The notes under the pieces are model-generated. The model was not told the DNA's origin. It made no database searches and was given only the letters and a program-made list of their open reading frames with translations. A stretch of 64,000 nucleotides of DNA, taken from positions 1 to 64,000 of the forward strand of contig CALDUF010000027.1 in NCBI GenBank assembly GCA_937923515.1, in the 5' to 3' direction. Positions 36,228 to 50,673 of this stretch are shown in pieces. Within the stretch, counting starts at the first letter, position 1; each line of letters opens with the position of its first letter. The translations under genes were made by a program, and so were the position numbers. The stretch comes from an uncultured Flavobacteriaceae bacterium (GTDB lineage Bacteria; Bacteroidota; Bacteroidia; Flavobacteriales; Flavobacteriaceae).

Positions 36228-37532
36228 CTAATTCAAAGCACTTTTATACGTTTCTAAACAACGTTCGCGTGCCATTTTATGGTCTACAATAGGTTGCGGA
36301 TACGTTAATTCTTGAAAATCAGGAACCCAAGTTTTTATATAAGTTAAGTCCTTATCAAATTTTTGAATTTGGGTAGTAGGATTAAAAATTCTAAAATATG
36401 GCGCAGCATCAACGCCGCTACCAGCTACCCATTGCCAATTACCAATGTTACTAGCCATGTCGTAGTCGTGTAATTTTTCAGCAAAATAGGCTTCGCCCCA
36501 ACGCCAATCAATAAGTAAATGTTTACATAAAAAACTCCCCACAAGCATACGCACTCTATTATGCATAAAACCAGTTTCGTTTAGTTGTCTCATGCCAGCA
36601 TCTACAAAAGGATACCCTGTTTTACCTTCGCACCAAGCCTTAAATTCCGTTTCGTTATTACGCCACTTAATCCTGTCGTATTTAGATTTAAAACTGTCTT
36701 TAGCCGTATGCGGAAAATGCCATAGTATTTGCATAAAAAATTCGCGCCAAATAAGTTCTTGCCAAAATATTTCGTTTTTTTCTGCAATAGCTTTTTTTAC
36801 CATTTTGCGAACGCTTGCCGTACCAAATCGTAAATGTGGCCCTAATCTAGATGTAGCATCTTTAGCAGGAAAGTTACGTGTATCTTCATAATCTTGTATA
36901 AGTTTTGGCGTAACTGTGTAGGGTGTAATATTTTGGTGTGATGTTTTAAAACCTATATCAGATAAACTTAAATTCGGTAATCGTGTATGTTCTACCAAAT
37001 TGTCCATATAAGCGTTGGTGTAAAAAATTTCTAAATTATAAGATTTAAATTTTTCTTTCCAAGTTTTCATGTATGGCGTGTATACTACATAAGGGGTGCC
37101 ATCTGCTTTTACAACCTCGTCTTTTTCAAATATAACTTGGTCTTTATATGTTTTAAAATCAATATTATGCGTCTCTAAAAATGAAGCAATAGCTTCGTCG
37201 CGTTCTTTAGCATAAGGCTCATAATCGTGATTGGTGTATACCGTTTCAATATCATACGCTTCTACCAAAGTTTTATAAATATCTATAGGTTTACCGTGAT
37301 AAATGGCAATACTACTGTTATGTTCCTTTTGTAAAACCTCGCGCATATCTTGGAGTGTTTTATGTATAAATGCAACTCTTGCATCATCTTTAGGCAGTTT
37401 ATCCAGTATATCAGTATCAAAAATAAATATAGGCAATACAGTATTTTTTCCTTTTAAGGCTTCGTAAAAACCTAGATTGTCATCTAGTCTTAAATCACGA
37501 CGAAACCAAAATATATTCAGGGGTTGTTTCAT
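36228..37532 (-). CDS. phr: Deoxyribodipyrimidine (CPD) photolyase, class I-like
   Basis: Repairs UV-induced cyclobutane pyrimidine dimers using blue light. 434 aa: an N-terminal alpha/beta antenna domain (NIFWFRRDLRLDDN, 5-18) and a C-terminal FAD domain with WRWGEAYFAEKLHDYDMASNIGNWQWVAGSG(V)DAAPYFRIFNP, a strong signature. ATG start. It is the last gene of a long minus-strand run of photolyase and redox genes (to 50610). Could also be a cryptochrome in function; repair is the family default. Confidence 0.93.
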   Translation of the reverse strand: MKQPLNIFWFRRDLRLDDNLGFYEALKGKNTVLPIFIFDTDILDKLPKDDARVAFIHKTLQDMREVLQKEHNSSIAIYHGKPIDIYKTLVEAYDIETVYTNHDYEPYAKERDEAIASFLETHNIDFKTYKDQVIFEKDEVVKADGTPYVVYTPYMKTWKEKFKSYNLEIFYTNAYMDNLVEHTRLPNLSLSDIGFKTSHQNITPYTVTPKLIQDYEDTRNFPAKDATSRLGPHLRFGTASVRKMVKKAIAEKNEIFWQELIWREFFMQILWHFPHTAKDSFKSKYDRIKWRNNETEFKAWCEGKTGYPFVDAGMRQLNETGFMHNRVRMLVGSFLCKHLLIDWRWGEAYFAEKLHDYDMASNIGNWQWVAGSGVDAAPYFRIFNPTTQIQKFDKDLTYIKTWVPDFQELTYPQPIVDHKMARERCLETYKSALN

Positions 37533-37582
37533 GGGTATTCCTGCGTTTTAGTGGTGCTTAAATTTACAAACTGTTTAAAAAT

Positions 37583-38044
37583 CTAGTAAGTTCCAAAAAG
37601 TTCTTCTAACTTTTTAGTTCTGTAACTAAATATTTCTTCAAGTTTTGGTTTTACTAAAATAGGATGCGCAAGTTGCCCAAGTATACCTAGAGGAATTTTG
37701 TAATCTATAATATCTTCCATTTCTACACCACCATCAATTTCTTTGATAAAATGTTTATGATGCCATAATGCGTAAGGCCCAAAGCGTTGTTCATCTACAA
37801 AATAGTGCTTGTCAGTTACATGTGTAATTTCAGTGACCCATTTGGTTTTAATACCCAAAACGGGCGTTACAATATATTGAATAATTTGTCCAGCAAACAT
37901 CGGTCTGTCTGCACCAGATAAAATATTAAAACCCATATAATCAGGCGTTATGGTTTTTAAATTTTTTGGATCAGATAAGAAATCCCAAGCTTTATCAACA
38001 GTTATGGGTAAATTCTGTTTTTTGTGCAGTCTATAAATTTTCAT
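37583..38044 (-). CDS. SRPBCC family protein
   Basis: 153 aa, a START-like (Bet v 1) fold: KIYRLHKKQNLPITVDKAWDFLSDPKNLKTITPDYMGF at the start is the canonical opening, and EMEDIIDYKIPLGILGQLAHPILVKPKLEEIFSYR the long C-terminal helix. These proteins bind hydrophobic ligands. It occurs often beside photolyase genes in marine bacteria. It lies 50 nt upstream of the photolyase and 2 nt after TspO. Ligand unknown. Confidence 0.9.
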   Translation of the reverse strand: MKIYRLHKKQNLPITVDKAWDFLSDPKNLKTITPDYMGFNILSGADRPMFAGQIIQYIVTPVLGIKTKWVTEITHVTDKHYFVDEQRFGPYALWHHKHFIKEIDGGVEMEDIIDYKIPLGILGQLAHPILVKPKLEEIFSYRTKKLEELFGTY

Positions 38045-38046
38045 AT

Positions 38047-38508
38047 TTAGTTATTCAATAAAATATAACCATTAAGTGAAGTTGCTATACACAACCAAAT
38101 TAAATAGGGTAAAATTAGTATAGTTTTTAATTTTAGATTGTTATTATACTTAAATGTAAAAACACCTACCACAAATGTTAGTAGCGTAATTATAGTAAAA
38201 CCTAAACCAATGTAATGCAAATTAAAAAAGCAGTAATTCCAGATAACGTTTAGTATAAATTGGATACTAAAGAGTAGTATAACATCTAGTTTTGGTAATA
38301 ACCTGTACAAATAAGCCATGTACACAGAAAAACAAAGCATTATAGTAAACCATGCAGCACCAAATACCCATCCAGGAGGCGTCCACGGTGCTTTATTCAA
38401 ATTTAAATACCAATCTGTTCTTGGGCCATCGGCCATTAATAAATTTCCAATTGCTAGCGCACCAAAATTTACTACAAGAAAAAAAATGACAAGTTTAAAT
38501 AATTTCAT
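38047..38508 (-). CDS. tspO: TspO/MBR family membrane protein
   Basis: 153 aa with five membrane helices. Family signature GPRTDWYLNLNKAPWTPPGWVFGAAWF (residues 28-54) is clear, with the later NVIWNYCFFNLHYIGLGF. TspO binds or transports porphyrins and is linked to photo-oxidative stress in Rhodobacter. Its start overlaps the end of the frameshifted small gene (to 38495) by 14 nt, and its stop is 2 nt from the SRPBCC gene start, so they form one operon within the photolyase region. Confidence 0.94.
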   Translation of the reverse strand: MKLFKLVIFFLVVNFGALAIGNLLMADGPRTDWYLNLNKAPWTPPGWVFGAAWFTIMLCFSVYMAYLYRLLPKLDVILLFSIQFILNVIWNYCFFNLHYIGLGFTIITLLTFVVGVFTFKYNNNLKLKTILILPYLIWLCIATSLNGYILLNN

Positions 38509-38670
38509 GCGTCATGCTATTGAGTTGTTTTGCAATTTCTTGGGCTTCATCATACTTTTTATCGCTCGCTAATTTATTTTTAGATGAGAGTTCGTGCCAC
38601 TCCTGCATTAACTTTTTAAATTTTTCCTCTAATTTTGTTTTTTTGTTTTTCTGATAAATAAATTAAACAT
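38495..38670 (-). CDS. Lacal_2735-family small protein, split by a -1 frameshift
   Basis: The ATG at 38670 opens MFNLFIRKTKK and ends at TAG (38631-38629). Reading the A AAA AAA heptamer (38644-38638) with a -1 shift joins it to KLEEKFKKLMQEWHELSS...DKKYDEAQEIAKQLNS, ending at 38495. The joined product of about 58 aa looks like the Lacal_2735 family of small flavobacterial proteins: a short hydrophobic-basic N-terminus, then a coiled coil. The heptamer is in the correct frame for a slippery site. Alternatives are an assembly error or a recent indel mutation. It sits 8 nt after the glutathione peroxidase stop and overlaps tspO by 14 nt. Confidence 0.65.
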
Positions 38671-38678
38671 AAGTTTAC

Positions 38679-39215
38679 TTATTTAAGATGTTTCGTGATT
38701 TTTGAACTGAGCGGACTGGTTGAAGAAAAATAATAATCAATCAAATAACCGTTGGTATCCACTAAGTATTTTTGAAAATTCCATTTTACAGAAGAGTCCT
38801 TTTTACCATTATTTATCTTTTGGGTCAACCAACTATATAAAGGATGTTGTTGTTTCCCTTTAACATCAATCTTTTCAGTAATTAAAAAACTTACACCGTA
38901 GTTAACTTCACAAAAGGTTTCAATAGTATTAGAATCTCCGGGCTCTTGTCCTCCAAATTGATTACAAGGCACTCCTATAATTTTAATCTTATCTCCAAAC
39001 TGTTCATATAATTCTTGTAATGATTTGTATTGTGGTGTAAATCCGCATTTGGAAGCAACATTTACAAACAGTATATGTTTTCCTTTGAATTCTGATAAAT
39101 TTATGGGCTTGCCTTGTAAAGAATTAATTTGAATGTCATAAATTGAATTTATATCCAATTTCTTTTTAGAACTACCCGAATTTATGGTGGCTATAAATGC
39201 CTTTAAAGGATTCAT
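38679..39215 (-). CDS. Glutathione peroxidase family thiol peroxidase
   Basis: 178 aa. The catalytic Cys is C57 in NVASKCGFTPQYKSLQELY, with PCNQFGGQEPG (Gln) and KWNFQKYLVD (Trp, Asn) completing the catalytic tetrad. Cys in place of Sec means it probably uses thioredoxin. The first about 20 residues are not part of the family core; the start is uncertain. It lies between an SDR gene (4 nt upstream) and the frameshifted small gene in the photolyase region. Confidence 0.93.
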   Translation of the reverse strand: MNPLKAFIATINSGSSKKKLDINSIYDIQINSLQGKPINLSEFKGKHILFVNVASKCGFTPQYKSLQELYEQFGDKIKIIGVPCNQFGGQEPGDSNTIETFCEVNYGVSFLITEKIDVKGKQQHPLYSWLTQKINNGKKDSSVKWNFQKYLVDTNGYLIDYYFSSTSPLSSKITKHLK

Positions 39216-39219
39216 AAAT

Positions 39220-39903
39220 CTAAATTTTAAAACTTACAATACCACAATCCATTTCATATACTTGTCCTGATAGTGACGCCGCATTATCAGACAGTAAAAA
39301 CTCTGCCATTGCTGCTACCTCTTCAGGTGATAAGAATTTTTTTAGAGGATGACGTTCCGTAATGTTTTCAATCATTTTGTCATTACGCAGTAGTTTAGAT
39401 GCTAACTCAGTATTGGTAACTGTTGGTGCAATAGCGTTTATACGTAATGTAGGCGCTAATTCCGCTCCTAAAGACTTCACTAAGCCTTCAACACCAGATT
39501 TAGCAACGGCTACACTGGCATGAAACGGCATACCTAATTTTGCAGCCACAGTACTAAACAATACTATGGAAGGTTTATCTCCTTGCTTTAAAATTGATAA
39601 GTATTTTTGGATAACCTTTACCGCACCAAGTACGTTAATTTCAAAATCATTTTTAAAATCGTCTATACTTAATCTCGATATAGGTTTTAAATTGATGCTT
39701 CCAGGACAATATACAAGCCCATCAGCCTGTTCAATTTCAGGAAGTTCATCTTTAGTTACATCGCAATCGTAGTGAGTTAAATTTTCGTGCGATATATCGG
39801 GTGTGCTTCTGCTTATATTAATTACTTTGCAGTATTCCAGTAATTTAGTAACAATGGCTTTACCAATGCCCTTACTACCTCCAACTATTAGTATTGTTTT
39901 CAT
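39220..39903 (-). CDS. Short-chain dehydrogenase/reductase
   Basis: 227 aa. The cofactor loop is GGSKGIGKAI (8-17); the catalytic Ser is in VLFSTVAAKLGMPFHASVAVAKSG, where the usual Tyr of YxxxK is replaced by HASVAVAK, so the YxxxK Tyr appears to be missing. This may mean a non-catalytic or atypical SDR. NAD(P)-binding is still likely. In an operon with the glutathione peroxidase (4 nt). Substrate unknown. Confidence 0.85.
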   Translation of the reverse strand: MKTILIVGGSKGIGKAIVTKLLEYCKVINISRSTPDISHENLTHYDCDVTKDELPEIEQADGLVYCPGSINLKPISRLSIDDFKNDFEINVLGAVKVIQKYLSILKQGDKPSIVLFSTVAAKLGMPFHASVAVAKSGVEGLVKSLGAELAPTLRINAIAPTVTNTELASKLLRNDKMIENITERHPLKKFLSPEEVAAMAEFLLSDNAASLSGQVYEMDCGIVSFKI

Positions 39904-39926
39904 AGGTTTCAGGGCATTTTGTTAAC

Positions 39927-40142
39927 TTACGGCCTGCCCTTTAGCCGTTTTTCTATTTTTTGTTTTATTACAGTTAAACGCTTCATCAAATCCATAATTT
40001 CAGGATCTTTTTCTACTTTGTAGATGTCGTTTAAACTTAATATTAAACTCTTTACTTCTCTAGACGATTCAATACGCTCACTCGTTGTCTTAAACGTGTG
40101 TCTTCTTTGTTCGAATTCCAGAGCTTTGTCAATAATCTCCAT
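39927..40142 (-). CDS. Small coiled-coil protein, paralog of 40292
   Basis: 71 aa, basic and almost entirely helical: ALEFEQRRHTFKTTSERIESSREVKSLI through IMDLMKRLTVIKQKIEKRLKGRP. About 60 percent identical by eye to the 76-aa product of the gene at 40292. Tandem copy near folE. I do not recognise a named family. It lies 23 nt from the SDR gene. A coiled-coil regulatory or binding role is possible; no motif shows one. Confidence 0.8.
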   Translation of the reverse strand: MEIIDKALEFEQRRHTFKTTSERIESSREVKSLILSLNDIYKVEKDPEIMDLMKRLTVIKQKIEKRLKGRP

Positions 40143-40165
40143 AATTTTTTAACCTTACTATAATT

Positions 40166-40200
40166 TTTTTGTAAAATGCCGACTTATCGGACATTTTCGC
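40166..40200 (-). promoter_or_regulatory. Hairpin between the twin coiled-coil genes
   Basis: The inner arms CCGA and TCGG enclose loop CTTA, and outer arms AAAATG and CATTTT extend it to 10 bp with one bulged base (about 40175-40199). It lies in the leader of the 39927 gene and after the end of the 40292 gene, so it may attenuate or insulate the two. A T-run is weak. Confidence 0.45.
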
Positions 40201-40291
40201 AATATAGTAAAATATAGAAGATTACTTGATTTTCTAGAGATTTATTAGATAAAATTTAATATTTAGGCGTTTTAGCCTTTTATTTTTTTAG

Positions 40292-40522
40292 TTATGCTGT
40301 TAAAGGTGCGCCTTTTAATCGCTTTTCTACTTTGCGTTTAATAACAGTTAAACGTTTCATGATGTCCATAATTTTTTCATCTTTTTTCTCTTTGTAGATC
40401 TGATTTAAATCTAATATCAAAGATTTAGCTTCTCTAGATATCTTTACACGATCACTCGTTGATAATGATCTCATTTTTCTTTGTTCAAATTCTAATGCTC
40501 TGTTAATTAATTCTAATTCCAT
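40292..40522 (-). CDS. Small coiled-coil protein, paralog of 39927
   Basis: 76 aa: MELELINRALEFEQRKMRSL start, with SREAKSLILDLNQIYKEKKDEKIMDIMKRLTVIKRKVEKRLKG. Strongly basic and helical. The twin at 39927 shares ALEFEQR, SRE-KSLIL-LN-IYK, KD--IMD-MKRLTVIK and EKRLKG. It starts 4 nt after the stop of folE, so it is co-transcribed with it. No family name can be supported. Confidence 0.82.
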   Translation of the reverse strand: MELELINRALEFEQRKMRSLSTSDRVKISREAKSLILDLNQIYKEKKDEKIMDIMKRLTVIKRKVEKRLKGAPLTA

Positions 40523-40526
40523 AATA

Positions 40527-41222
40527 TTAGTTATTTAAATAATTTTGTAATTCCGTGATTTTTTCTGATGTGTTAAACTGTCCGCCATAATAAGCAGTAA
40601 CAGTAGAAGATGTATCATCTTTGATGCCTCTAGAGGATACACACAAATGTTTTGCATCTATAATAACAGCCACGTCCTCAGTATCTAAGATTGTTTTTAA
40701 TTCGTTTGCGATTTGATTTGTTAAACGCTCCTGAACTTGCGGACGTTTTGCATAATACTGCACTATTCTGTTTAGCTTAGAAAGTCCAATAACTTTACCA
40801 GAAGAAATATATGCAACATGCGCTTTCCCTATAATTGGCACAAAGTGATGTTCGCAATTAGAGTAAAATGTGATGTTTTTTTCTACAAGCATTTGGTTGT
40901 ATTGGTACTTGTTGTCAAACAATGCTACTTTAGGTTTATTTGCAGGATTTAATCCAGAAAATATTTCATCTATATACATTTTCGCAACACGTTTAGGTGT
41001 ACCTTGTAGAGAATCATCTGTGAGGTCTAAACCCATTACGTCCATAATTTCTTCAAACAGAATGGCAATACGCTCTTTTTTCTCGGCATCAGTAAGTTTA
41101 AACGCATCGGCTTTCATTGGTGTTTCTAGACCCGTGTATAAATGGTCGTCACCAATATCTTCGGTTGAAAATCCATTAAGTTTGTGCCCGTTAGTTTTTG
41201 TTTTTAATTTTTCTAATTGCAT
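40527..41222 (-). CDS. folE: GTP cyclohydrolase I
   Basis: Converts GTP to dihydroneopterin triphosphate, first step of folate and pterin synthesis. 231 aa. The zinc site is visible: C and H in YSNCEHHFVPIIGKAHVAYI and C in DAKHLCVSSRGIKD. RPQVQERLTNQIANEL is also conserved. The N-terminal about 50 residues are less conserved. Pterins matter here since photolyases use methenyltetrahydrofolate as antenna, and folE lies among four photolyase genes; a supply role is inferred. Confidence 0.97.
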   Translation of the reverse strand: MQLEKLKTKTNGHKLNGFSTEDIGDDHLYTGLETPMKADAFKLTDAEKKERIAILFEEIMDVMGLDLTDDSLQGTPKRVAKMYIDEIFSGLNPANKPKVALFDNKYQYNQMLVEKNITFYSNCEHHFVPIIGKAHVAYISSGKVIGLSKLNRIVQYYAKRPQVQERLTNQIANELKTILDTEDVAVIIDAKHLCVSSRGIKDDTSSTVTAYYGGQFNTSEKITELQNYLNN

Positions 41223-41335: not shown

Positions 41336-41608
41336 TTAACGTTTCGATATTTTATTGTGCGTAATTTGTTTTTGTCTGCTACATTTAAAGCGACCTTTAT
41401 CAAATACTCTTAATTTTTCATGTTTAGTGGAGCGCCCTTGTACGCGTTTGCGCCACATTTTGAAACTACTTGGTTTCATTTCCTTTCGCATCAACTCTAT
41501 AACATCTTGCTCTTTTAAACCAAATTGAAAGTGTATAGCCTCAAATGTTGTGCGGTCTTCCCAGGCCATTTCTATAATTCTATCTATGTCTTCGGTAGAT
41601 AATGTCAT
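41336..41608 (-). CDS. TIGR03643 family protein
   Basis: 90 aa with an N-terminal helix-turn-helix-like region (STEDIDRIIEMAWEDRTTFEAIHFQFGLKEQDVIELMRKEMKPSSFKMWRKRVQGRSTKHEKL), which I recognise as TIGR03643 (DUF2805). This small family is typically next to photolyase or cryptochrome genes. It overlaps the 41605 gene by 4 nt. A DNA- or partner-binding role in light response is suggested only by context. Confidence 0.9.
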   Translation of the reverse strand: MTLSTEDIDRIIEMAWEDRTTFEAIHFQFGLKEQDVIELMRKEMKPSSFKMWRKRVQGRSTKHEKLRVFDKGRFKCSRQKQITHNKISKR

Positions 41609-42033
41609 AAACCTTGAAAGTTGTATTGTTCGTCGTATTTTATCTTTTCATCTAACATCTTCGTGAAAAACCGCTTATTCTCTTTAAATGTTTTGGTGTT
41701 TTTAAATTGAATAAATTTTCCTTGTGCATGTATGCTCGCGCCGTTAGTTTTATACATTACTAGTTGATAATAGGGGATTGCCCAAGTAAAATTTTGCAAG
41801 CCCTTATTAATAAATACTAAAATACCTTTAGTACGTAGTTCTATATTGGCATAGTTGATGTCTGCAACGGTATTCATGTAAGTGCTTAAATTAGGACTTA
41901 CATTTCCAATAATCATTCGTTTAGAACCAACACCTTTCATTTTTAATGATTCTAAAAGTGTGAAAGATCTACCAACCAAATCTGTTAGCATTTGTTTGTG
42001 GTCTCTATCAAAATGTGTTGTATTTAATACCAT
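41605..42033 (-). CDS. Unknown protein at head of the second photolyase-region operon
   Basis: 142 aa, soluble, no signal peptide. Mixed alpha/beta: DRDHKQMLTDLVGRSFTLLESLKMKGVGSKRMIIGNVSP, then LSTYMNTVADINYANIELRTKGILVFINKGLQNFTWAIPYYQLVMYKTNG. No cysteine or metal motif. It is the first gene after the shared promoter at 42051 and overlaps the TIGR03643 gene by 4 nt. No family name; PH-like or lipid-binding shape is possible but unsupported. Confidence 0.78.
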   Translation of the reverse strand: MVLNTTHFDRDHKQMLTDLVGRSFTLLESLKMKGVGSKRMIIGNVSPNLSTYMNTVADINYANIELRTKGILVFINKGLQNFTWAIPYYQLVMYKTNGASIHAQGKFIQFKNTKTFKENKRFFTKMLDEKIKYDEQYNFQGL

Positions 42034-42050
42034 TTTATCAACTTATACTT

Positions 42051-42096
42051 CAAATATACAAAATGTTTAACCTTTTTTAAAATAAGTTGAACAAAA
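42051..42096 (-). promoter_or_regulatory. Shared promoter/operator, copy 1 (upstream of 41605-42033)
   Basis: The minus-strand -7 box TATATTTG (42058-42051) lies 17 nt before the ATG. Upstream comes a block nearly the same as at 50628-50673: ATACAAAATGTTTAA (42056-42070), TTAAAATAAGTT (42077-42088) and AACAAAA (42090-42096), at identical spacings. About 35 of 41 positions match. TGTTTAA (42064-42070) and TTGAACA (42087-42093) form an inverted repeat with a 16-nt spacer, one mismatch. No -33 TTTG is seen at the usual distance, so an activator may be needed. Confidence 0.7.
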
Positions 42097-42155
42097 AATA
42101 TAATATCACTATAAGTGAAGCCTATTGAAATGTGTAATTAATTGAATTTCAATAT

Positions 42156-43637
42156 TTAAGATTTTAAAAAGCGTGTTTTAAGAGTGTGCTTTTTAAGTAT
42201 TCTTTGGCTTTCTTTCAAAACGGTTTTGTCTTTTCGTAGTTCCCAAAGTGTATCACCAGCTTTTTTTCTTGTAGTTTCCAAGTCTACAATAGGGCTTGGA
42301 TAGTCTTTATCTAACTGAAAGTTATAAAACTGTTGTTCCATTTCAGTCATTAAATAAGGTTGATGCGCAAACGGTGTATCAAGTGCTTTAAGTTCTGGCA
42401 CCCATTTTTTAATAAAAGTAGCATCAGGGTCGTGTTCTAAACTGTTTTTAACAGGATTGTAAATACGCAACATATTTATACCAGTTTCTCCAGCCTGCAT
42501 TTGTAATTGCGGAAAGTGTATCCCGGGTTCAAAATCCAAAAACATTTGTGATAAATGAGTTGTTGCTTCTTGCCAAGGTTGCCATAAATTATGAGTAAAA
42601 AATGACACCACTAAGGCTCTCATTCTAAAATTTAAATACCCCGTTTCATTTAAACATCTTATACATGCATCTACTAAAGGATAGCCAGTTTGCCCTTTTT
42701 TCCAAGCGTCTTGGTAGTGTTGTGATATGCTTTTTTTTAATTTATGAAACCCTCTATTAACGCTAGCTTCTTCCATAGTGTGTTCCATTTCAAACTTTTG
42801 AATAAAATGGGTTTGCCAACGTAGGCGAGACATAAATGCTTCTAAAGCTTTTTTGTGTTTAGATGTTTGCTTTAAATGATACGCTTGGTGATATACTTCT
42901 CTTACCGATAGATTTCCCCAAGCTATGTATGGCGATATTCTGCTGCAACTTGTTCTTGCTAAACTTGGTTTAGAAATATTAAACATGTAATTAGGATAGC
43001 GCTCCTCAAAAAAAGATTTTAAATATCTGAGACCAGTGGAACGTCCACCTTTTTGAAACACAGTATCTTTTGGAGTATTTAAATCTGGAACGGTAAAGTT
43101 TGCTTCTAAACCTTCAATAGCTTCTTTTGAAATTAACTGATTGTGTTTTGGTAAAAACTTTAGAGGTTCTATGGCATAGTAATTATCAACCAGCTCCGTC
43201 CAATTATCTCTGTTTTGCAAACCACGTTGTACGCCGTTATTAATATTTTCGTGCCAATTTATAAGGTTGTTTTTGCAGTATCTTTTAAAATTTTTATCAC
43301 GCTCAAAAGTGACTAGTATTCCGGTTTCTTGATGAGAATAAATATCTGAAATATAATAGTGTGCCTGTAATTGGTTTATAGCAGCGATAATATCAGATTG
43401 TACAGCGAGTATTTTAGAATTATAAGGTTCTAAATCTTTATTTAAATCTATGATAGATTGTTTAATAAAGTTCCAATGCCGTTCACTATAATGCGCATCA
43501 TTTAGTAACAGTGGCTCAAAACTATATAGAAGCAATGTAGGTTTACCTGTATTTAAGGCATTGTATATGGCTTCATTATCGTGTAAACGTAAATCGCGTT
43601 TTAACCAAACTACAGCTATATGGGGTTTAGTATTCAT
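42156..43637 (-). CDS. Photolyase/cryptochrome family FAD-binding protein
   Basis: 493 aa from ATG 43637 (the frame also allows TTG 43649). Antenna domain start HIAVVWLKRDLRLHDNEAIYNAL; FAD domain with QKGQTGYPLVDACIRCLNETGYLNFRMRALVVSF, then LQMQAGETGINMLRIYNPVKNSLEHDPDATFIKKW. It resembles bacterial cryptochrome-like photolyases distinct from the class I enzyme at 36228. It overlaps the (6-4) photolyase gene by 11 nt, so the two are co-translated. It may be a repair enzyme or a light sensor. Confidence 0.93.
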   Translation of the reverse strand: MNTKPHIAVVWLKRDLRLHDNEAIYNALNTGKPTLLLYSFEPLLLNDAHYSERHWNFIKQSIIDLNKDLEPYNSKILAVQSDIIAAINQLQAHYYISDIYSHQETGILVTFERDKNFKRYCKNNLINWHENINNGVQRGLQNRDNWTELVDNYYAIEPLKFLPKHNQLISKEAIEGLEANFTVPDLNTPKDTVFQKGGRSTGLRYLKSFFEERYPNYMFNISKPSLARTSCSRISPYIAWGNLSVREVYHQAYHLKQTSKHKKALEAFMSRLRWQTHFIQKFEMEHTMEEASVNRGFHKLKKSISQHYQDAWKKGQTGYPLVDACIRCLNETGYLNFRMRALVVSFFTHNLWQPWQEATTHLSQMFLDFEPGIHFPQLQMQAGETGINMLRIYNPVKNSLEHDPDATFIKKWVPELKALDTPFAHQPYLMTEMEQQFYNFQLDKDYPSPIVDLETTRKKAGDTLWELRKDKTVLKESQRILKKHTLKTRFLKS

Positions 43638-45159
43638 CTTGGTGTGCAATTATATGTTGCGCCTTTTTTTTAATGTTTTGTAATTGCGCTTTATCCATTT
43701 TATCCAACAAACTGTACATCATACCCATTCTAAAATTGTTGCCTAAATACTCGCGTTTTTCGTCAAGAAAATTCCAGTACAAACTGTTAAAAGGACACGC
43801 ATCATCTTCTGTTTTTTTACTTTTATTGTAATGGCAACTACTGCAATAATTACTCATTTTATTAACGTATGATCCTGAGGACACATAAGGTTTTGTTGCA
43901 ATTTTACCACCATCGGCAAATTGGCTCATGCCTCTTGTGTTGGTAAGTTGTACCCATTCTACAGCATCTACATAAATACCCAAATACCAATCATCAACTT
44001 CATCAGGATTCGTTTGTGTTAAAAGCGCATAGTTTCCTGTAATCATTAGGCGCTGTATGTGGTGCGCATACCCGTTATCTAACGAGTTTGTAATGGCATG
44101 CTTTAAACAATTCATTTTAGTATTGCCTGTCCAGAAAAATTCAGGCAAGCTATTGGTGTTATTCAGCTGGTTTAAATTTTTATATTCTGGCATAAAGGCC
44201 CAATACATTCCGCGCATATATTCGCGCCAGCCAATAATTTGGCGCACAAAACCTTCTACCTGCGAAATATTAATATTGTCGCCATGTTTTCGGTAGTAGT
44301 TCATCACCGTTTTTACTACATCTTTTGGCGAAATCAGTTTTAAATTTATGGCAAAGGATAATCTAGAGTGAAACAAATACACTTCATTTGTATGCATCGC
44401 ATCTTGATAATCTCCAAAATGAATTAGCAAATGCTCGCAAAAATATTTTAATTGTTCTAACGCTTGAGACCGCGAAATAGGGTAGGCAAAAGTTTTTGTT
44501 TTAAATGTGCCTATGGTTTTTATTTTTGCATGTTCAATAGCTGTAACTATATCAGAAACATTGTTTTTAAATATTTTATAGTTGGGTATTGCCACATCAC
44601 CTTTCCATTTGTTTCTATTGCTTTTATCGTAATTCCATTTACCACCTTCTGGTTGGTCTGCAACCATAAGTATATCGTGTTTTTTGCGCATATCTCTGTA
44701 AAAATTCTCCATGAGATATTGTTTCTTACCTTTAAAAAACAATTTTAAATCGTTTCTTTCGGTATAAAAATGTTCTGCAGAAACTGCATTTGTTTCAATA
44801 CTTAAATTATCACAATAGTTTTTAAGTTGTGTGTCTAAGCGGTGTTCATCTGGAAAGATGTATTCAAAACTTTCAATATGATGTTCTTTTATTAAAAGTG
44901 AAATATTATCAACTAAACTTTGGGTATTATTTGTGTCGTTAATTTTGAAGTAAATTACCTCATGTCCAGCAGCTGTTACATCTTCGCTAAACTGACGCAT
45001 TGCGGCAAAAAAACCAATCACTTTTTGGATGTGATGTGTTACATAATCGGTTTCCTGACGCATTTCGAACATGCAATACGTAATATTGTCGTTAGTTTCT
45101 TTAAACCACGAATGCTTGCTATTGAGTTGGTCGCCCAGTATGAGTCTTAGCGTTTTCAT
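43627..45159 (-). CDS. Fe-S bacterial (6-4) photolyase (FeS-BCP/PhrB type)
   Basis: 510 aa. The first domain (LRLILGDQLNSKHSWF) fits the FeS-BCP group. Four likely [4Fe-4S] cysteines are seen: one in MNCLKHAIT and three in YCSSCH...DDACPFN with the spacing C-x2-C-x12-C that matches Agrobacterium PhrB. Repairs (6-4) photoproducts in that group. It starts one base past the stop of the DASH gene (45160) and overlaps the next gene, so the three photolyases lie in one operon. Confidence 0.94.
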   Translation of the reverse strand: MKTLRLILGDQLNSKHSWFKETNDNITYCMFEMRQETDYVTHHIQKVIGFFAAMRQFSEDVTAAGHEVIYFKINDTNNTQSLVDNISLLIKEHHIESFEYIFPDEHRLDTQLKNYCDNLSIETNAVSAEHFYTERNDLKLFFKGKKQYLMENFYRDMRKKHDILMVADQPEGGKWNYDKSNRNKWKGDVAIPNYKIFKNNVSDIVTAIEHAKIKTIGTFKTKTFAYPISRSQALEQLKYFCEHLLIHFGDYQDAMHTNEVYLFHSRLSFAINLKLISPKDVVKTVMNYYRKHGDNINISQVEGFVRQIIGWREYMRGMYWAFMPEYKNLNQLNNTNSLPEFFWTGNTKMNCLKHAITNSLDNGYAHHIQRLMITGNYALLTQTNPDEVDDWYLGIYVDAVEWVQLTNTRGMSQFADGGKIATKPYVSSGSYVNKMSNYCSSCHYNKSKKTEDDACPFNSLYWNFLDEKREYLGNNFRMGMMYSLLDKMDKAQLQNIKKKAQHIIAHQDEY

Positions 45160-46470
45160 TTAAAATAATGTTTTTTGTAACCACAAATTTTGAAATTTAC
45201 CAGACGCATCATAGCGCGATGCTTGCAAATCCACGTTAAACTTTCGGTCTCTAGGATCGTTGCCAACGCCAGCAACGTACATCCAATTGCCATAATTGCT
45301 ATGCACATCATAGTCAATAAGTATAGACTCAAAGTAAGCAGCACCTATTCTCCAATCTAGCAACAACTCTTTAGCAAAAAATGAAGCCACATTTTGCCGT
45401 CCTCTATTGCTCATCCAGCCTGTATGCTTAAGTTCTAGCATATTTGCATTCACAAATGCAGAACGTGTTTCGCCATCAATCCACTTTTTAATTAGTTTTT
45501 TATCGTGCTTCCATTCGTAATCCTTTTCAAGAATACCGCCAATTTTAAAAATGGAGTTACCGTGTTTTAATGATGTGTATTTAAAATAATCTCTCCAAAT
45601 CAGTTCAAAAATCAACCAATATGTAGATTGGTTTTTATAATGCGCTTTTTCGAATTCCTTTACCTGATGATAAATTGTTCTAGCAGAAATACTACCGTTT
45701 GCTAGCCATGGCGAAAATTTAGAGCTATAGTCTTTACCTACTAAGCCATTTCTAGTTTTCTTGTAGAATCCTAATTTTTTAGTTTTAAAAAAATAATCGT
45801 CTAAGCGATCTAGTGCAGCGTTTTCTCCACCTGAAAATGGGAAGGCAGTATTTGGATGTACATCAAAATCTTCAAAGCCTAAAGCGTTAAGCGATGGAAT
45901 TTTGGTGGTGTTTGTAATATCTTTTAATGGTAAAGCTTTGTTTGGGCGATTAGTATATTGTACCTCGCTATATTTTTCAACTTTTTTTCTAAAGTTTGTG
46001 AATACGGGTGGTATATCGCTAAACGATATATTTATGTCCTTCGGATGAAATAAAAACTGATCGTAATACTCATGGAATGTTACCGATGTTTGGATATTTG
46101 CTTTTACTATGTCTATAATTTTAACTTCTTCGCTAGTCCACTCTTTTTGTAGATAAATTGAATCTATTTTAAATTGTTCTACAAGTTTAGGTACCGCATG
46201 CTCAGGTTTATCTTGGTAAACAAAAAGATCAATGTGTAACTCTTTAAGATTTTCTCTTAAATTCTGAACTGTTTCAACTAAGAATTTCGCTCTAAACTGT
46301 TCCGTTTTTTTAAATCCGAATCTATCAATTTCAAATAATTTAGGGTTAAAACAATACACTGCTATAACGTGTTTATGATGTTTTAGCGCACGGTTTAAAA
46401 CCTCATTGTCGTTTACTCTTAAATTGTTATTATACCAAACTAGTGCTGTGGTGTTTTGTTTCTCCTGCAT
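45160..46470 (-). CDS. DASH-family cryptochrome
   Basis: 436 aa. N-terminal [22 protein letters not shown] and, in the FAD domain, [54 protein letters not shown], the clear DASH signature (VGNDPR...FN). DASH enzymes repair CPDs in single-stranded DNA and some act as light sensors. Just upstream of the (6-4) photolyase. Its ATG at 46470 is preceded by a 75-nt gap after the SDR gene stop. Confidence 0.95.
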
Positions 46471-46545
46471 TTTTCACTACAATATTTTACGTTGTCCCAA
46501 TTTTTCTCCCATTTCTTTCTCCAAGTAAAAGGTAGTTTACAGGTA

Positions 46546-48006
46546 TTACACGTTTTCTGTGGTAAGTGTTGTTTTTTGTGGCTCAACTTTTACGAGTTTA
46601 TTAATCATACCTGAAAATATAAAACCATGAAATGGTAATACTGCATACCAGTATAACCTGCCCCAAAGCCCACGAGGCCTAAACGTTGCAGTTTGTTTTA
46701 GTTTATTATCCTCAATTTTAAATTCTAACCAAGCTTCTCCTGGTAAGCGCATTTCGGCATAAAGTAGTAGTTTTTGTTTGTCTTTATCTGCAAAAATTAC
46801 ACGCCAAAAATCTAGAGCATCTCCAGCGTCTAAATCGGTTGGACTTGTTCTACCACGCCTTAAACCAATACCTCCAAAAAGTTTATCGATATACCCTCTA
46901 ATACGCCAAAGGATTGTACCGTAATACCATCCATTTTTACCGCCAATACTCCATATTTTGTCAATGGTTTTGTCAGCGTCAACTATGTCACGTTCCTTAT
47001 AATCTTTAAAACAACCAAATTTTGGCACATTAACGTATTTATGCAATTGTTGGCCTAAACGCCCACTGCTCACCATAGAATCTTTCCAGCTAGAAACAAT
47101 ACCGTTCTGCTCAATTTTTTCGAATGCTAAGGCAACCGCTTCTTTGTAGGTTATAGGATTTACATTTAATATTTTGTTGATGTCGCTATCTTTTCCAATA
47201 ATTTGAACGCCCATACTATCAACCAACGAGGTGGCTAACTTATACGATGTTGATGTTACAAAATACAACCAATATGATGATAATTTTGGCGTCATCACAG
47301 GCACTGTTACAATAGTGCGTTTTAGTTCACGTACCTCGGCAAACTGCAACAACATTTCTTTGTAGGTGATAATTTCTGGACCAAAAACATCGTAACTTTT
47401 ATTATAAAGTGTTTCATTACCAACAGCTCTTGATAAAAAGAACAGTACATCTCTAACCGCCAATGGTTGTGTTTTGGTGTTTAACCATTTTGGCGCAATC
47501 ATAAAAGGTAGTTTTTCAACTAGATCTCTAATAATTTCAAAAGAAGAACTGCCAGAGCCCACAATAATGCCTGCCTTAAAAATAGTTAGTGCATAGGCTT
47601 TTGAAGCTAATATGTTTTCTACATTTTTTCTAGAACGCAAGTGTTTAGAGAGTTTATCTTCATTGGTAATACCACTTAAATAAATAACCTGCTTGGTATC
47701 TGTTTTTTCGATATACGATTTGAAGTTTACAGCACATTTTTCTTCTAACGATTCAAAATCTTTAGAAGAATTAGACATAGAGTGTATTAAATAATACGCT
47801 GCATCAATATTGGCAGGAATATTACTTAGTGTTTCAGGCTTTAAAAAATCGGCCTCAATAACATAAAGGTTTTCTTCTTCACTGTAACTTTTATCGGCTC
47901 TCAATCTATCTCTTACAACACAAACAACAGTATGTCCCTCATTTAATAAAAAGGGGATAAGGCGTTTGCCTATATAACCTGTTGCTCCTGTTACAAGTAT
48001 TGTCAT
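46546..48006 (-). CDS. NAD(P)-binding SDR with DUF2867 C-terminal domain
   Basis: 486 aa. N-terminal atypical SDR Rossmann domain ([17 protein letters not shown], 5-21) and a C-terminal DUF2867 domain from about residue 330 ([32 protein letters not shown] near 445-475). The latter contains an arginine- and aromatic-rich stretch that may bind a lipid or pigment. This protein type is common in photolyase operons. It overlaps the flavin reductase gene by 4 nt. Substrate unknown. Confidence 0.9.
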
Positions 48007-48635
48007 ACGGTTTGTGTTACTGGTTTAGGTCTTTGGTATCCAAATCTCACTCTGCTTTCTGGTACTACGTAACCATCTAGACCGTTAATAGCAGCAACCT
48101 TTGCTTTTGAAAGGTTGATAAAGCCGTCTTCTTCAATAAGTTCATCGTTTACATATAAACCAGTTACTTTCCCAATTACTAAAATGGTGTTGTTGGCTTT
48201 AATAGGATATTCTTCTAAAAATTCCATTTGCAGCTGTACAGGCGATCCTTTAACAAAAGGAGCTTTACAGCCTTCTTTATATTCAGCTTCAAGATGCGTC
48301 ATATCAAATTCTGAAATCGTATCATCATACTTAGCTGATGTATGATGCGCATCTTCTTTAATAGCCTCGTGTATATGATTTATGGTATACACGCCCGTTG
48401 TCTTTAAATTTTCGTAAGTGTTACGAATTACAGTTGTTGGCCTAAGAAAAAAACCAAGAATAGCAGGACTAGACCCTATATGCGTAATAGAACTAAACAC
48501 TGCTACGTTTTCTACACCATCTTCAGATATAGATCCAACAAGGTTAGCAGATTTGTACCCCGAACAACTATTCATCAAATTTATTTTGTAAATATGTTCT
48601 AAACCTTGTATGTCTTGTTCACTAAAGTATGTCAT
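48003..48635 (-). CDS. Flavin reductase-like domain protein
   Basis: 210 aa, a split-barrel FMN-binding fold: NLVGSISEDGVENVAVFSSITHIGSSPAILGFFLRPTTVIRNTYENLKTTGVYTINH is the canonical stretch. Reduces flavins or binds FMN. In a photolyase operon it may help keep FAD or FMN reduced, but that is inference. It overlaps the DUF2867 gene by 4 nt and begins 1 nt after the ABC1 gene stop. Confidence 0.92.
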   Translation of the reverse strand: MTYFSEQDIQGLEHIYKINLMNSCSGYKSANLVGSISEDGVENVAVFSSITHIGSSPAILGFFLRPTTVIRNTYENLKTTGVYTINHIHEAIKEDAHHTSAKYDDTISEFDMTHLEAEYKEGCKAPFVKGSPVQLQMEFLEEYPIKANNTILVIGKVTGLYVNDELIEEDGFINLSKAKVAAINGLDGYVVPESRVRFGYQRPKPVTQTV

Positions 48636-48636
48636 A

Positions 48637-49950
48637 TTAAGATAGTCTTAAATAATTGTTGATTTTAATGTGTTGTGCTTTTAAATCAAACATCAAATTA
48701 TAAAGCCCAAAAAAGGTTCTGTTAATGTATATAAAGTGCTTAGAACCTCTGTTACCATTCATCTTCTTTAAATCTGTGCTTTTAGAATAGCGTTCGCCTA
48801 ATTCGGCAATTTTTCCGAAGAATTCAGCATCAGAAAAATCGAAAGTGTCTTGGTGAAACGGTTGTGTAAACAAGCTTAGCATGTCGTAAAACATTTCAGT
48901 AAAAAATGCTAATTCAGCTTTTGAGTCGTCTTCTCTTAAAATTTCTAATTCGTAAAGTTTCGCAACAAAATAATCTCTATTACTGATATTTTCTGGTTTC
49001 GCTAACTCAAAATAAGGTGTATAAAATTCCTGAGGGATAGATTTCATACACCCAAAATCAAGCGCTATTAATTCTCCTTTTTTAGAAATTAGGAAATTCC
49101 CAGGATGTGGGTCTGCATGTACTTTCTTTAAGTTATGAATTTGATACATGTAAAAATCCCAAAGGGCTTGTCCTAATTTATTAGCTTTATCTTGGTCTGT
49201 ATTATGCCCCGTAAATTCCGAAAGGTGTTCTCCTTCCATATAATCCATAGTAATAATACGTTCAGAAGATAAATCTTCGTAGTATTTTGGAAATTGTAAG
49301 TTAGAAATATGAGCACAAGCTTTAGATATTTCCTTGCTTTGTTCTACTTCTAAAATATAGTTGGTTTCCTCAACTAACTTGTGTTCTACTTCTTTAAAAT
49401 ATTTATCAGAATCTTTTCCTTTGATGTTAAACATGCTCATGGCTATAGGTTTTACCATAGCCAAATCTGATGCGATACTTTCTGCAACTCCTGGATATTG
49501 GATTTTCACAGCAAGTTTTTTCCCATTCTTAGTTGCAATATGCACCTGACCGATGCTAGCAGCGTTTACAGAAGTTGCGTTAAAAGTATCAAATAGATCA
49601 TCGGGATGTTTCCCAAAATATTTTTTAAATGTTTTTATAACTAGAGGCGGCGATAGTGGCGGCACCGAAAATTGTGCTAAAGAAAATTTTTCCACGTACG
49701 CTTGTGGTAAAATACTCTTTTCCATACTTAGCATTTGTGCTACTTTAAGGGCGCTGCCTTTTAGTTGTTTTAAACCGTCATAAATATCAGAAGCATTGTT
49801 TTTGTTTAAACGTTCTTTAGCTTCTTCTTCGGTTTTTACAATTTTATCACCATAATACTTTAAATAGTTTACGCCTACTTTAGCACCTGTAGATACTAAT
49901 TTTGTAGCACGTTGTATTTTTGATGTAGGTATGTTGTCTATGGTTTTCAT
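48637..49950 (-). CDS. ABC1/UbiB-family atypical kinase
   Basis: 437 aa. Kinase-like motifs: the KxGQ-like stretch KQLKGSALKVAQMLS (about 41-55), AVKIQYPGVAESIASDL, VHADPHPGNFLI and IALDFGCMK. Members regulate isoprenoid quinone or lipid metabolism with ATPase activity rather than protein kinase activity. 3 nt separates it from the TetR gene. Its partner isoprenoid pathway in this region is not visible. Confidence 0.93.
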   Translation of the reverse strand: MKTIDNIPTSKIQRATKLVSTGAKVGVNYLKYYGDKIVKTEEEAKERLNKNNASDIYDGLKQLKGSALKVAQMLSMEKSILPQAYVEKFSLAQFSVPPLSPPLVIKTFKKYFGKHPDDLFDTFNATSVNAASIGQVHIATKNGKKLAVKIQYPGVAESIASDLAMVKPIAMSMFNIKGKDSDKYFKEVEHKLVEETNYILEVEQSKEISKACAHISNLQFPKYYEDLSSERIITMDYMEGEHLSEFTGHNTDQDKANKLGQALWDFYMYQIHNLKKVHADPHPGNFLISKKGELIALDFGCMKSIPQEFYTPYFELAKPENISNRDYFVAKLYELEILREDDSKAELAFFTEMFYDMLSLFTQPFHQDTFDFSDAEFFGKIAELGERYSKSTDLKKMNGNRGSKHFIYINRTFFGLYNLMFDLKAQHIKINNYLRLS

Positions 49951-49953
49951 TTA

Positions 49954-50610
49954 CTAATTGCTATGAAATTTTTCTTTAAATAAAAATTTGCCTAAGTCTA
50001 TTACACTTTTAAGTGGTGCTACGTCTAAAACATCAAAAGTTGTGTTTACTGATTTTTCGATAAAAATATCAGTCTTCTCAAATGATGCAGAGGTATCATC
50101 TAACCAAAATTTCATGGTTAGTAATAGCTGAAACCATGCAGATTCTTTTAAGGCATTATCTTGTATTTTTTCTAATTGTTCCTGCTTTAGGTCTAGCATT
50201 TGTATACCCAATTCGCTAATGTAGTGTGTAAAGTGTTTTTTTAGTCCAGATAATATTTTTAAACCCTTAAGGTCTTTTTTATACTTGTCTAAAACATGCT
50301 TTACATAACTTCTGTTTGCTGTTAAGTTTTCAAAAAAGGTGTAGTAAAAACTTAAGAGTTTATTTCTAGCATCAAAAATTTTGTAATCCTCACTTTTGTT
50401 CAATGCTATAATTGAGTTTGAGAAAAACGCTTCGAAAATGCCTTTTTCAATAGCCTCGAATGATGTAAAATACTCGTAGAATTTAGCTTCTTCAAAATTG
50501 TTCATTTTGGCAAAAGCAAATACTGTTTTAGGATTAGCATCGTGCTCCAACACATAATCCATATACCATGTTATAATATCGTTTTTAGAAACTGATTTTT
50601 TCTTCGCCAT
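49954..50610 (-). CDS. TetR-family transcriptional regulator
   Basis: 218 aa. N-terminal TetR-like helix-turn-helix (SKNDIITWYMDYVLEHDANPKTVFAFAKMNNFEEAKFYEYFTSFEAIEKGIFEAFF, 6-62), then an all-helical ligand-binding domain. First gene of the long minus-strand operon, directly behind the promoter/operator at 50628 that recurs at 42051. It is the most likely protein to bind that inverted repeat (inference). Ligand unknown. Confidence 0.9.
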   Translation of the reverse strand: MAKKKSVSKNDIITWYMDYVLEHDANPKTVFAFAKMNNFEEAKFYEYFTSFEAIEKGIFEAFFSNSIIALNKSEDYKIFDARNKLLSFYYTFFENLTANRSYVKHVLDKYKKDLKGLKILSGLKKHFTHYISELGIQMLDLKQEQLEKIQDNALKESAWFQLLLTMKFWLDDTSASFEKTDIFIEKSVNTTFDVLDVAPLKSVIDLGKFLFKEKFHSN

Positions 50611-50627
50611 AATTATAATATTTATGG

Positions 50628-50673
50628 TAAAGATACAAAATGTTTAAAAATAATTAAAATAAGTTAAACAAAA
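50628..50673 (-). promoter_or_regulatory. Shared promoter/operator, copy 2 (upstream of the TetR gene)
   Basis: The minus-strand -7 box TATCTTTA (50635-50628) lies 17 nt before the ATG, exactly as in copy 1. The same blocks recur at identical offsets: ATACAAAATGTTTAA (50633-50647), TTAAAATAAGTT (50654-50665), AACAAAA (50667-50673). TGTTTAA (50641-50647) and TTAAACA (50664-50670) make a perfect inverted repeat with a 16-nt spacer. Confidence 0.7.

Follow-up and report, generated by a model that had tools for sequence, protein, structure and literature searches.

CarH is described as binding DNA in the dark as an adenosylcobalamin tetramer placed over promoter elements, and its operators as tandem 11-bp repeats of the form nAnnTnnACAn (PMC8156234). 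The signature of the CarH photoreceptor is given as GxxW, EH, GxxH, and GxxxP (PMC11796333), and His132 is reported to be the light-state ligand in Thermus CarH (PMC10442372). In Pseudomonas, as summarized in PMC9758184, PmlR2 binds TGTACA-N12-TGTACA and works with a LOV protein, class II LitR keeps just the four-helix bundle, and the light-induced PplR set includes phrB, cryB, and folE. No account of a LitR/CarH operator in Bacteroidota stood out among the literature titles and abstracts listed, with subscription papers excluded, which is no proof of absence. How does a flavobacterial photolyase locus compare with these systems? We analyzed a stretch of 64,000 nucleotides (the window; contig CALDUF010000027.1) from an uncultured marine member of the Flavobacteriaceae, whose assembly comprises 2.71 Mb in 136 contigs and is 87.6% complete. 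Two transcription units of its photolyase region start from near-identical promoter sequences. Both sites are very probably operators of one regulon, under a putatively light- and B12-responsive LitR/CarH-type MerR repressor whose predicted gene lies upstream of crtI.

The repeated operator and its recurrence

On the minus strand, positions 42051-42096 and 50628-50673 are identical at 38 of 46 positions, and our recount within the first 41 returned the 35 matches given in a preliminary description of this DNA. A pattern spanning both copies matched the window exactly twice and none of 100 shuffles, and the full 38-nt pattern, with up to three mismatches allowed, still found just these two places across the whole genome. 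Copy 1 of the operator (TTGTTCAAC-N14-GTTAAACAT, minus strand, 42063..42094) precedes the hypothetical/DUF2805/folE unit (unit 1), and copy 2 (TTGTTTAAC-N14-TTTAAACAT, minus strand, 50640..50671) precedes tetR, the first gene of unit 2. Rereading agreed with the earlier description that the inverted repeat TGTTTAA-N16-TTAAACA is perfect in copy 2; in copy 1 one arm reads TGTTCAA. The -7 boxes, also on the minus strand, are TATATTTG at 42051..42058, which begins 36 nt from the left-arm start, and TATCTTTA at 50628..50635, which was read from the sequence by eye. Each ends 17 nt before its start codon (ATG at 42033 and at 50610), the distance stated before, and the reported absence of the usual -33 element held as well, with no TTTG 19 to 21 nt before the -7 box at either window promoter (copy 2 checked by eye). 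Judged by their letters, both window promoters are copies of one 32-base operator, TTGTTTAAC-N14-GTTAAACAA.

Conservation of this operator was followed in the best 80 of 174 relatives of the TetR protein, close species included, with a site called at promoters when at least 14 of 18 arm positions agreed. A site precedes tetR in all 80 of these named loci and precedes the gene for a 142-amino-acid (aa) protein, the first gene of unit 1, in 67 of the 68 tetR loci where that gene was found. As background, random 150-bp windows from the tetR loci scored at least 14 in 36 of 2,000 cases, a number that probably includes some true sites. The arms hardly vary among 78 distinct tetR sites, whereas the spacer is loose, and the -7 box is conserved too.

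The unit that recurs genome-wide is the palindrome and not the whole 41-mer. Within the same genome it also lies between merR and crtI (L013:6462-6493, C26), with one extra spacer base before an azurin gene that is followed by a gene for an FAD amine-oxidase-like oxidoreductase (C80, L018:1422-1454), and before a small open reading frame (ORF; by eye) and a DUF2452 gene (C86, L003:1501-1532). We take this small ORF to be Lacal_2735-like. Looser copies occur close to the gene for a large secreted protein and close to a deaminase gene. Two of the matches in this genome were taken as chance: C88:17111, before what appears by eye to be a cytidine deaminase gene, has an arm without the C, and C26:42408, a two-mismatch match, falls inside coding sequence. 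The pattern was matched in 43 of 80 related genomes, 38 with the strict 31-bp site and 5 with other spacing only. When the gap was left free from 2 to 31 (30 spacings), 48 genomes gave 107 distinct sites, of which 85 have one same spacing.

Genes adjoining sites in 52 loci were grouped by BLAST and one member of most groups was scanned; some rows of the resulting table have no gene within reach. FAS1 genes fill 16 rows, and mnmA, in most cases divergent from a FAS1 gene, fills 10. Seven rows hold a gene for a GHMP protein that is mevalonate-kinase-like, six (not counting the window) the gene for the 142-aa protein, six GLPGLI genes, and four the gene for a secreted repeat protein. Two rows each hold crtW-like, CIA30, and TonB-receptor-like (by eye) genes, and single rows hold genes for TspO, a 153-aa-protein-like product, an aldehyde-dehydrogenase-like product (by eye), and an SDR/DUF2867 protein. 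By their annotation, the families recurring beside sites are largely pigment or photoprotection genes; an algal FAS1 protein is described as binding carotenoids (PMC10147662). The preliminary description had named random occurrence across the genome as the outcome that would speak against it. We found instead this pigment and photoprotection company, and the reversed control pattern had no match in the own genome and none in the 80 related ones.

Two arrangements around FAS1 genes were also seen. A FAS1 gene and mnmA, the gene for a tRNA 2-thiouridylase, often flank one intergenic region and the operator in it (L244, L247, L255, L259, L260, L264, and others). In L121 and L123-L127 (G046, G036, G033, G040, G024, and G048), merR is divergent from a FAS1-like gene; FAS1 genes of the other clade also bear the operator.

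The MerR protein upstream of crtI and the placement of its putative operators

A PF13411 search of the own genome returned two MerR genes. One (C81) encodes 109 aa without a sensor domain and resembles MliR of Bizionia as described in PMC9478572 by length alone, the comparison being with the description and not the sequence. The other, our candidate, lies outside the window on the minus strand (L013:6506-7402), directly upstream of crtI, crtB, a short gene, and a lycopene cyclase gene, with the operator between merR and crtI. The short gene had no Pfam match, and we presume that it is hydroxylase-like. The merR product carries a MerR helix-turn-helix (PF13411, 53.9 bits against a cut-off of 21.6) and a B12-binding_2 domain (PF02607, 39.7 bits against 23). 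PF02310 was not reported in the Pfam scan, and the predicted fold matches the whole B12-binding part of CarH (Z 18.4, 191 residues, 2.8 Å); both the four-helix and the Rossmann B12 domains are thus predicted. Thermus LitR/CarH is the best Protein Data Bank match by sequence (1e-13), and CarH is the best by fold. In 29 of 38 merR loci, a site of at least 14/18 lies on the 3' side of merR, scored by position relative to merR, whichever gene follows; one of the 29 (L117) is a 14/18 chance site, the perfect site of that locus lying elsewhere.

Like CarH of Thermus thermophilus, Bacillus megaterium, and Myxococcus, the candidate is predicted to combine the MerR helix with four-helix and Rossmann B12 domains. 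It also shares equivalents of Trp131, Glu141, His142, and His177, carotenoid-gene neighbors, and an operator overlapping promoter elements, and the left arm reversed, AAGTTAAACAA, fits the half-site nAnnTnnACAn as given for CarH (PMC8156234). By analogy, we think that this MerR protein works like CarH.

Several observations weigh against so close a likeness. The CarH equivalog NF052513 is the best NCBIfam model, but it reaches 65.7 bits against a cut-off of 400. Of the CarH signature, GLLW, EH, and GESVP are present, but GxxH reads NEIH, an NxxH that keeps the cobalt-binding His and leaves the four-motif signature incomplete. Unlike in CarH, the His132 equivalent is Gln; among 50 aligned homologues it is His in one (G035) and Gln, Gly, Thr, Ser, or Leu in the other 49. 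The operator is a 32-bp inverted repeat, whereas that of Thermus CarH consists of tandem 11-bp direct repeats: in place of three or four direct repeats we found two inverted arms with fixed spacing and a variable spacer, within which weak repeats were not sought. The putative regulon is also wide, unlike that of CarH, with photolyases, cryptochromes, folE, FAS1, and a mevalonate-kinase-like gene. Because GxxH, His132, and the equivalog cut-off all fall short and the operator is different, we call the protein a LitR/CarH-type MerR and not CarH.

The putative regulon in addition resembles that described for class II LitR of Pseudomonas (PplR, PmlR), with phrB, cryB, folE, and an SDR gene (PMC9758184). 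A dyad ending in TGT and ACA is a further likeness to that account, as is a regulator gene that belongs to its own regulon (PplR1). In contrast to the class II proteins as portrayed there, the operator here is not TGTACA-N12-TGTACA, and structure prediction gives the protein both B12 subdomains.

Could this MerR protein control both units in response to something other than light via B12, for example, redox state or singlet-oxygen products, as in non-B12 LitR? The Gln at the His132 position, the rarity of His there among homologues, and the altered GxxH would suit such a sensor, and class II LitRs are described as unlikely B12 binders (PMC9758184). We nevertheless consider this unlikely, given the complete B12 fold in the structure prediction and the retention of Trp131 and His177 equivalents in 50 of 50 homologues and of the EH pair in 48 of 50. 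The own genome has a cobalamin adenosyltransferase gene, as do 56 of 57 merR-positive genomes, which points the same way, but 15 of 23 merR-negative genomes have one too, and this co-occurrence is uninformative because the gene is common.

We then related the sites to the -7 box, expressing its start as an offset from the left-arm start. The box was taken as TAnnTTT(G/A) at the tetR, merR-3', and second-unit promoters (those of the 142-aa gene) and as TAnnTTTG only at the GHMP-kinase, GLPGLI, crtW-like, FAS1, and merR promoters. At tetR promoters the box lies at +36 in 67 of 80 and at +35 in 6 of 80, and at second-unit promoters at +36 in 51 of 68 and at +35 in 14 of 68. It lies at +16 at 25 of 29 merR-3' sites and at 7 of 7 GHMP-kinase, 6 of 6 GLPGLI, 2 of 2 crtW-like, and 9 of 12 FAS1 promoters (12 of the 16 FAS1 rows were taken, and offsets of opposite-strand sites may be off by one). 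At merR promoters it lies at -5 in all 32 taken from 50 loci, those omitted being 12 of the Lys clade (see below), including G033, and 6 others without an arm at -30. The right arm at the merR start was matched in 41 of 50 loci, a generous count since the template GATGAACAA was included, and this arm is coding sequence too; the evidence that the sequence offers there is the fixed left arm and the -7 box. Read along the DNA, the dyad center falls about 20 bp before the -7 box at the photolyase units, where the -33 element would be, on the -7 box at crtI and similar promoters, or about 20 bp after it at merR. Successive positions are 20 and 21 bp apart, close to two turns of the helix, and at any of the three the dyad would get in the way of RNA polymerase. 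In the own genome the crtI start codon lies just 7 nt after the -7 box, and several relatives look alike; crtI mRNA may therefore be leaderless.

Many MerR proteins are activators. Both window promoters lack a TTTG at its normal spacing from the -7 box, which would also fit a MerR protein that such promoters require as an activator, not a simple repressor. This is improbable in view of the three offsets (+36, +16, and -5), one of which puts the dyad downstream of the -7 box: blocking suits them better than a single activating geometry. CarH and PmlR2 are, furthermore, described as repressors (PMC8156234 and PMC9758184).

Co-occurrence and covariation with MerR and TetR

The strict 31-bp site occurs in 38 of 57 merR-positive genomes and in 0 of 23 merR-negative genomes (Fisher 7e-9), the latter including three with weak partial MerR matches that were counted as absent (G031, G067, and G070). 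With the 11 other members of the genus removed, the site is found in 27 of 46 versus 0 of 23. Among the 39 genomes without the TetR protein, 7 of 18 merR-positive and 0 of 21 merR-negative genomes have the site (P = 0.002). Because the genomes are related, these P values are too small. In 4 of the 7 TetR-less genomes with a site (G028, G050, G060, and G069), it lies within 1 kb of merR.

Does the operator change with the protein? The recognition helix of MerR reads RIWEKRY in the relatives nearest the window and RKWE(T/S)RY in 11 genomes of five genera, residue 24 being Ile in the former and Lys in the latter. All 11 Lys-type genomes have at least one TGTC arm between merR and its upstream neighbor or at the merR start, and these arms are often imperfect pairs, such as TGTCAAA with TTAGACA. 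A site before tetR was found in 15 of 27 tabulated genomes, the 12 without it including the Lys-type genomes G024, G080, G083, and G084. In the Lys-type genomes that have it (G046, G081, G082, and G048), both arms read TGTCTAA, whereas in the 11 other genomes the arms read TGTTTAA (TGTTCAA in one arm of G020); of these 11, Ile was read in nine plus G089, and the helix of G090 was not read. Genome G033, placed inside the Lys clade with weak tree support, carries the Ile form, and its sites at tetR and next to the 142-aa gene read TGTTTAA. Lys facing a G in place of an A would make chemical sense. A search for the TGTCTAA operator alone matched 6 of 80 genomes against 7 of 80 for its reversed control, not above control; for TGTCTAA sites, the one thing that counts as evidence is their position at tetR and merR promoters.

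Autorepression through a palindromic site is common among TetR proteins. The preliminary description had offered the TetR protein of unit 2 as one possible regulator. On this view, TetR would bind the palindrome and repress its own operon, unit 1, and perhaps other sites. As in such autorepressors, tetR comes first behind copy 2, where the site is conserved, and TetR presence tracks the site (31 of 41 genomes with TetR versus 7 of 39 without it; among merR-positive genomes, 31 of 39 versus 7 of 18). The operator is not confined to genomes encoding this TetR, however, as the 7 of 18 TetR-less merR-positive genomes attest, and the two genomes with TetR but no MerR lack the 31-bp site. G028 keeps a site before this cluster's SDR gene without this TetR, a different TetR_N protein being divergent there. 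The operator base changes in step with the residue of the MerR helix, and in the TetR protein Pfam recognizes just the C-terminal TetR_C_23 domain. We therefore rejected TetR as the binder on co-occurrence and covariation, and regard this alternative as very improbable. Alternatively, the likeness might stem from a recent promoter duplication or from AT-rich promoter sequence of a generic kind, without any regulator. The sequence is indeed AT-rich, and -7 boxes resemble one another in these bacteria, but this alternative has almost no chance of being correct, since conservation extends to the arms and the -7 box and not to the spacer, the same site precedes unrelated genes, and random AT-rich likeness failed the shuffle, reversed-pattern, and free-spacing controls.

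Control by the MerR protein has its own difficulties. The correlation of TetR with the site, partly a matter of shared ancestry, is one. The strict site is missing from 19 of 57 merR-positive genomes: in 5 the MerR is of the Lys type and in 9 the homologue reaches no more than 45% identity, but the other 5 lack the site despite 50 to 56% identity (G012, G027, G029, G034, and G045). Five genomes have the palindrome at other spacing only and were excluded from the 38, and three of them are without MerR (G049, G058, and G063). No -7 box lies at the three offsets in the secreted-repeat (4), CIA30 (2), or TspO/153-aa rows. Most Lys-type genomes keep the left arm TTGTTTAA at the merR start, G033 keeps TGTCC arms beside merR, and the helix/operator covariation comes from one clade plus G033, with few independent changes.

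What the sequences do show is the operator itself, conserved and at constant spacing and position, along with its gene company and the covariation with the MerR helix. The earlier proposal of one regulator for both units is well supported by the comparison of loci (80 of 80 and 67 of 68) and by recurrence at other genes, and of its two candidates it is the MerR-type light sensor encoded elsewhere that gene adjacency, co-occurrence, and covariation favor.

Gene content of the two units and a proposed model

All genes of both units lie on the minus strand. Unit 2 starts with the gene for the TetR-family protein (TetR_C_23; 49954..50610), followed by genes for an ABC1/AarF atypical kinase (48637..49950), a flavin reductase-like protein (48003..48635), an SDR/NmrA-DUF2867 protein (46546..48006), a DASH-family cryptochrome (45160..46470; TIGR02765 above cut-off), and a photolyase-related protein (DPRP; 43627..45159). 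It ends with a photolyase/cryptochrome-family gene (42156..43637, counted from an in-frame ATG; the ORF list has a TTG at 43649).

Unit 1 starts with the gene for the conserved hypothetical protein of 142 aa (41605..42033), which had no Pfam or NCBIfam match and whose orthologues adjoin the site in other genomes, and continues with genes for a DUF2805 protein (41336..41608) and GTP cyclohydrolase I (FolE; 40527..41222). Behind these, on the same strand, the region 36228..40522 holds two small ORFs and genes for an SDR protein (by eye), glutathione peroxidase, TspO, a 153-aa protein that we assume to be SRPBCC-like, and a DNA photolyase, all of which may belong to unit 1. Counterparts of two of them, TspO (G050) and a 153-aa-like protein (by eye, G021), have their own operator copy elsewhere in those genomes, which fits a unit 1 longer than in the preliminary description.

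The two small ORFs (71 and 76 aa; 39927-40142 and 40292-40522, minus strand) are adjacent, lie between folE and the SDR gene, and look like tandem paralogues; the first of the two had no Pfam match.

From these comparisons and the predicted fold, we infer binding by MerR, repression, a role for B12, a response to light, the direction of control, and the operon borders. In the dark, MerR with adenosylcobalamin would bind the 32-bp inverted repeat and block RNA polymerase. At the photolyase units its dyad, centered some 20 bp ahead of the -7 box, would cover the place of the -33 element; at the crtI, FAS1, GHMP-kinase, and crtW-like promoters it would be centered on the -7 box; and at merR it would sit just downstream of the -7 box and reach the start codon. 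In the light, the Co-C bond would break and the repressor would release DNA, so that photolyases, cryptochromes, FolE, and carotenoid genes would be switched on together.

A broader proposal stands at about even chances. Bacteroidota may own a branch of B12 light repressors that signals without His132, uses a rigid 32-bp inverted repeat at three positions, and couples carotenoids, UV repair, folate/pterin synthesis, and secreted FAS1 proteins, and the change from Ile24 to Lys may have moved the regulon of one clade from TGTTTAA toward TGTCTAA. For marine Flavobacteriaceae, our analysis provides a concrete candidate for the operator, and another for the regulator, through which light would control DNA repair and pigments, and the predicted regulon takes in members of unassigned role, namely, the 142-aa protein, DUF2805, FAS1, and GLPGLI proteins. 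The putative natural specificity switch, together with a likely photoreceptor lacking His132, would be useful for understanding how B12 light repressors release DNA.

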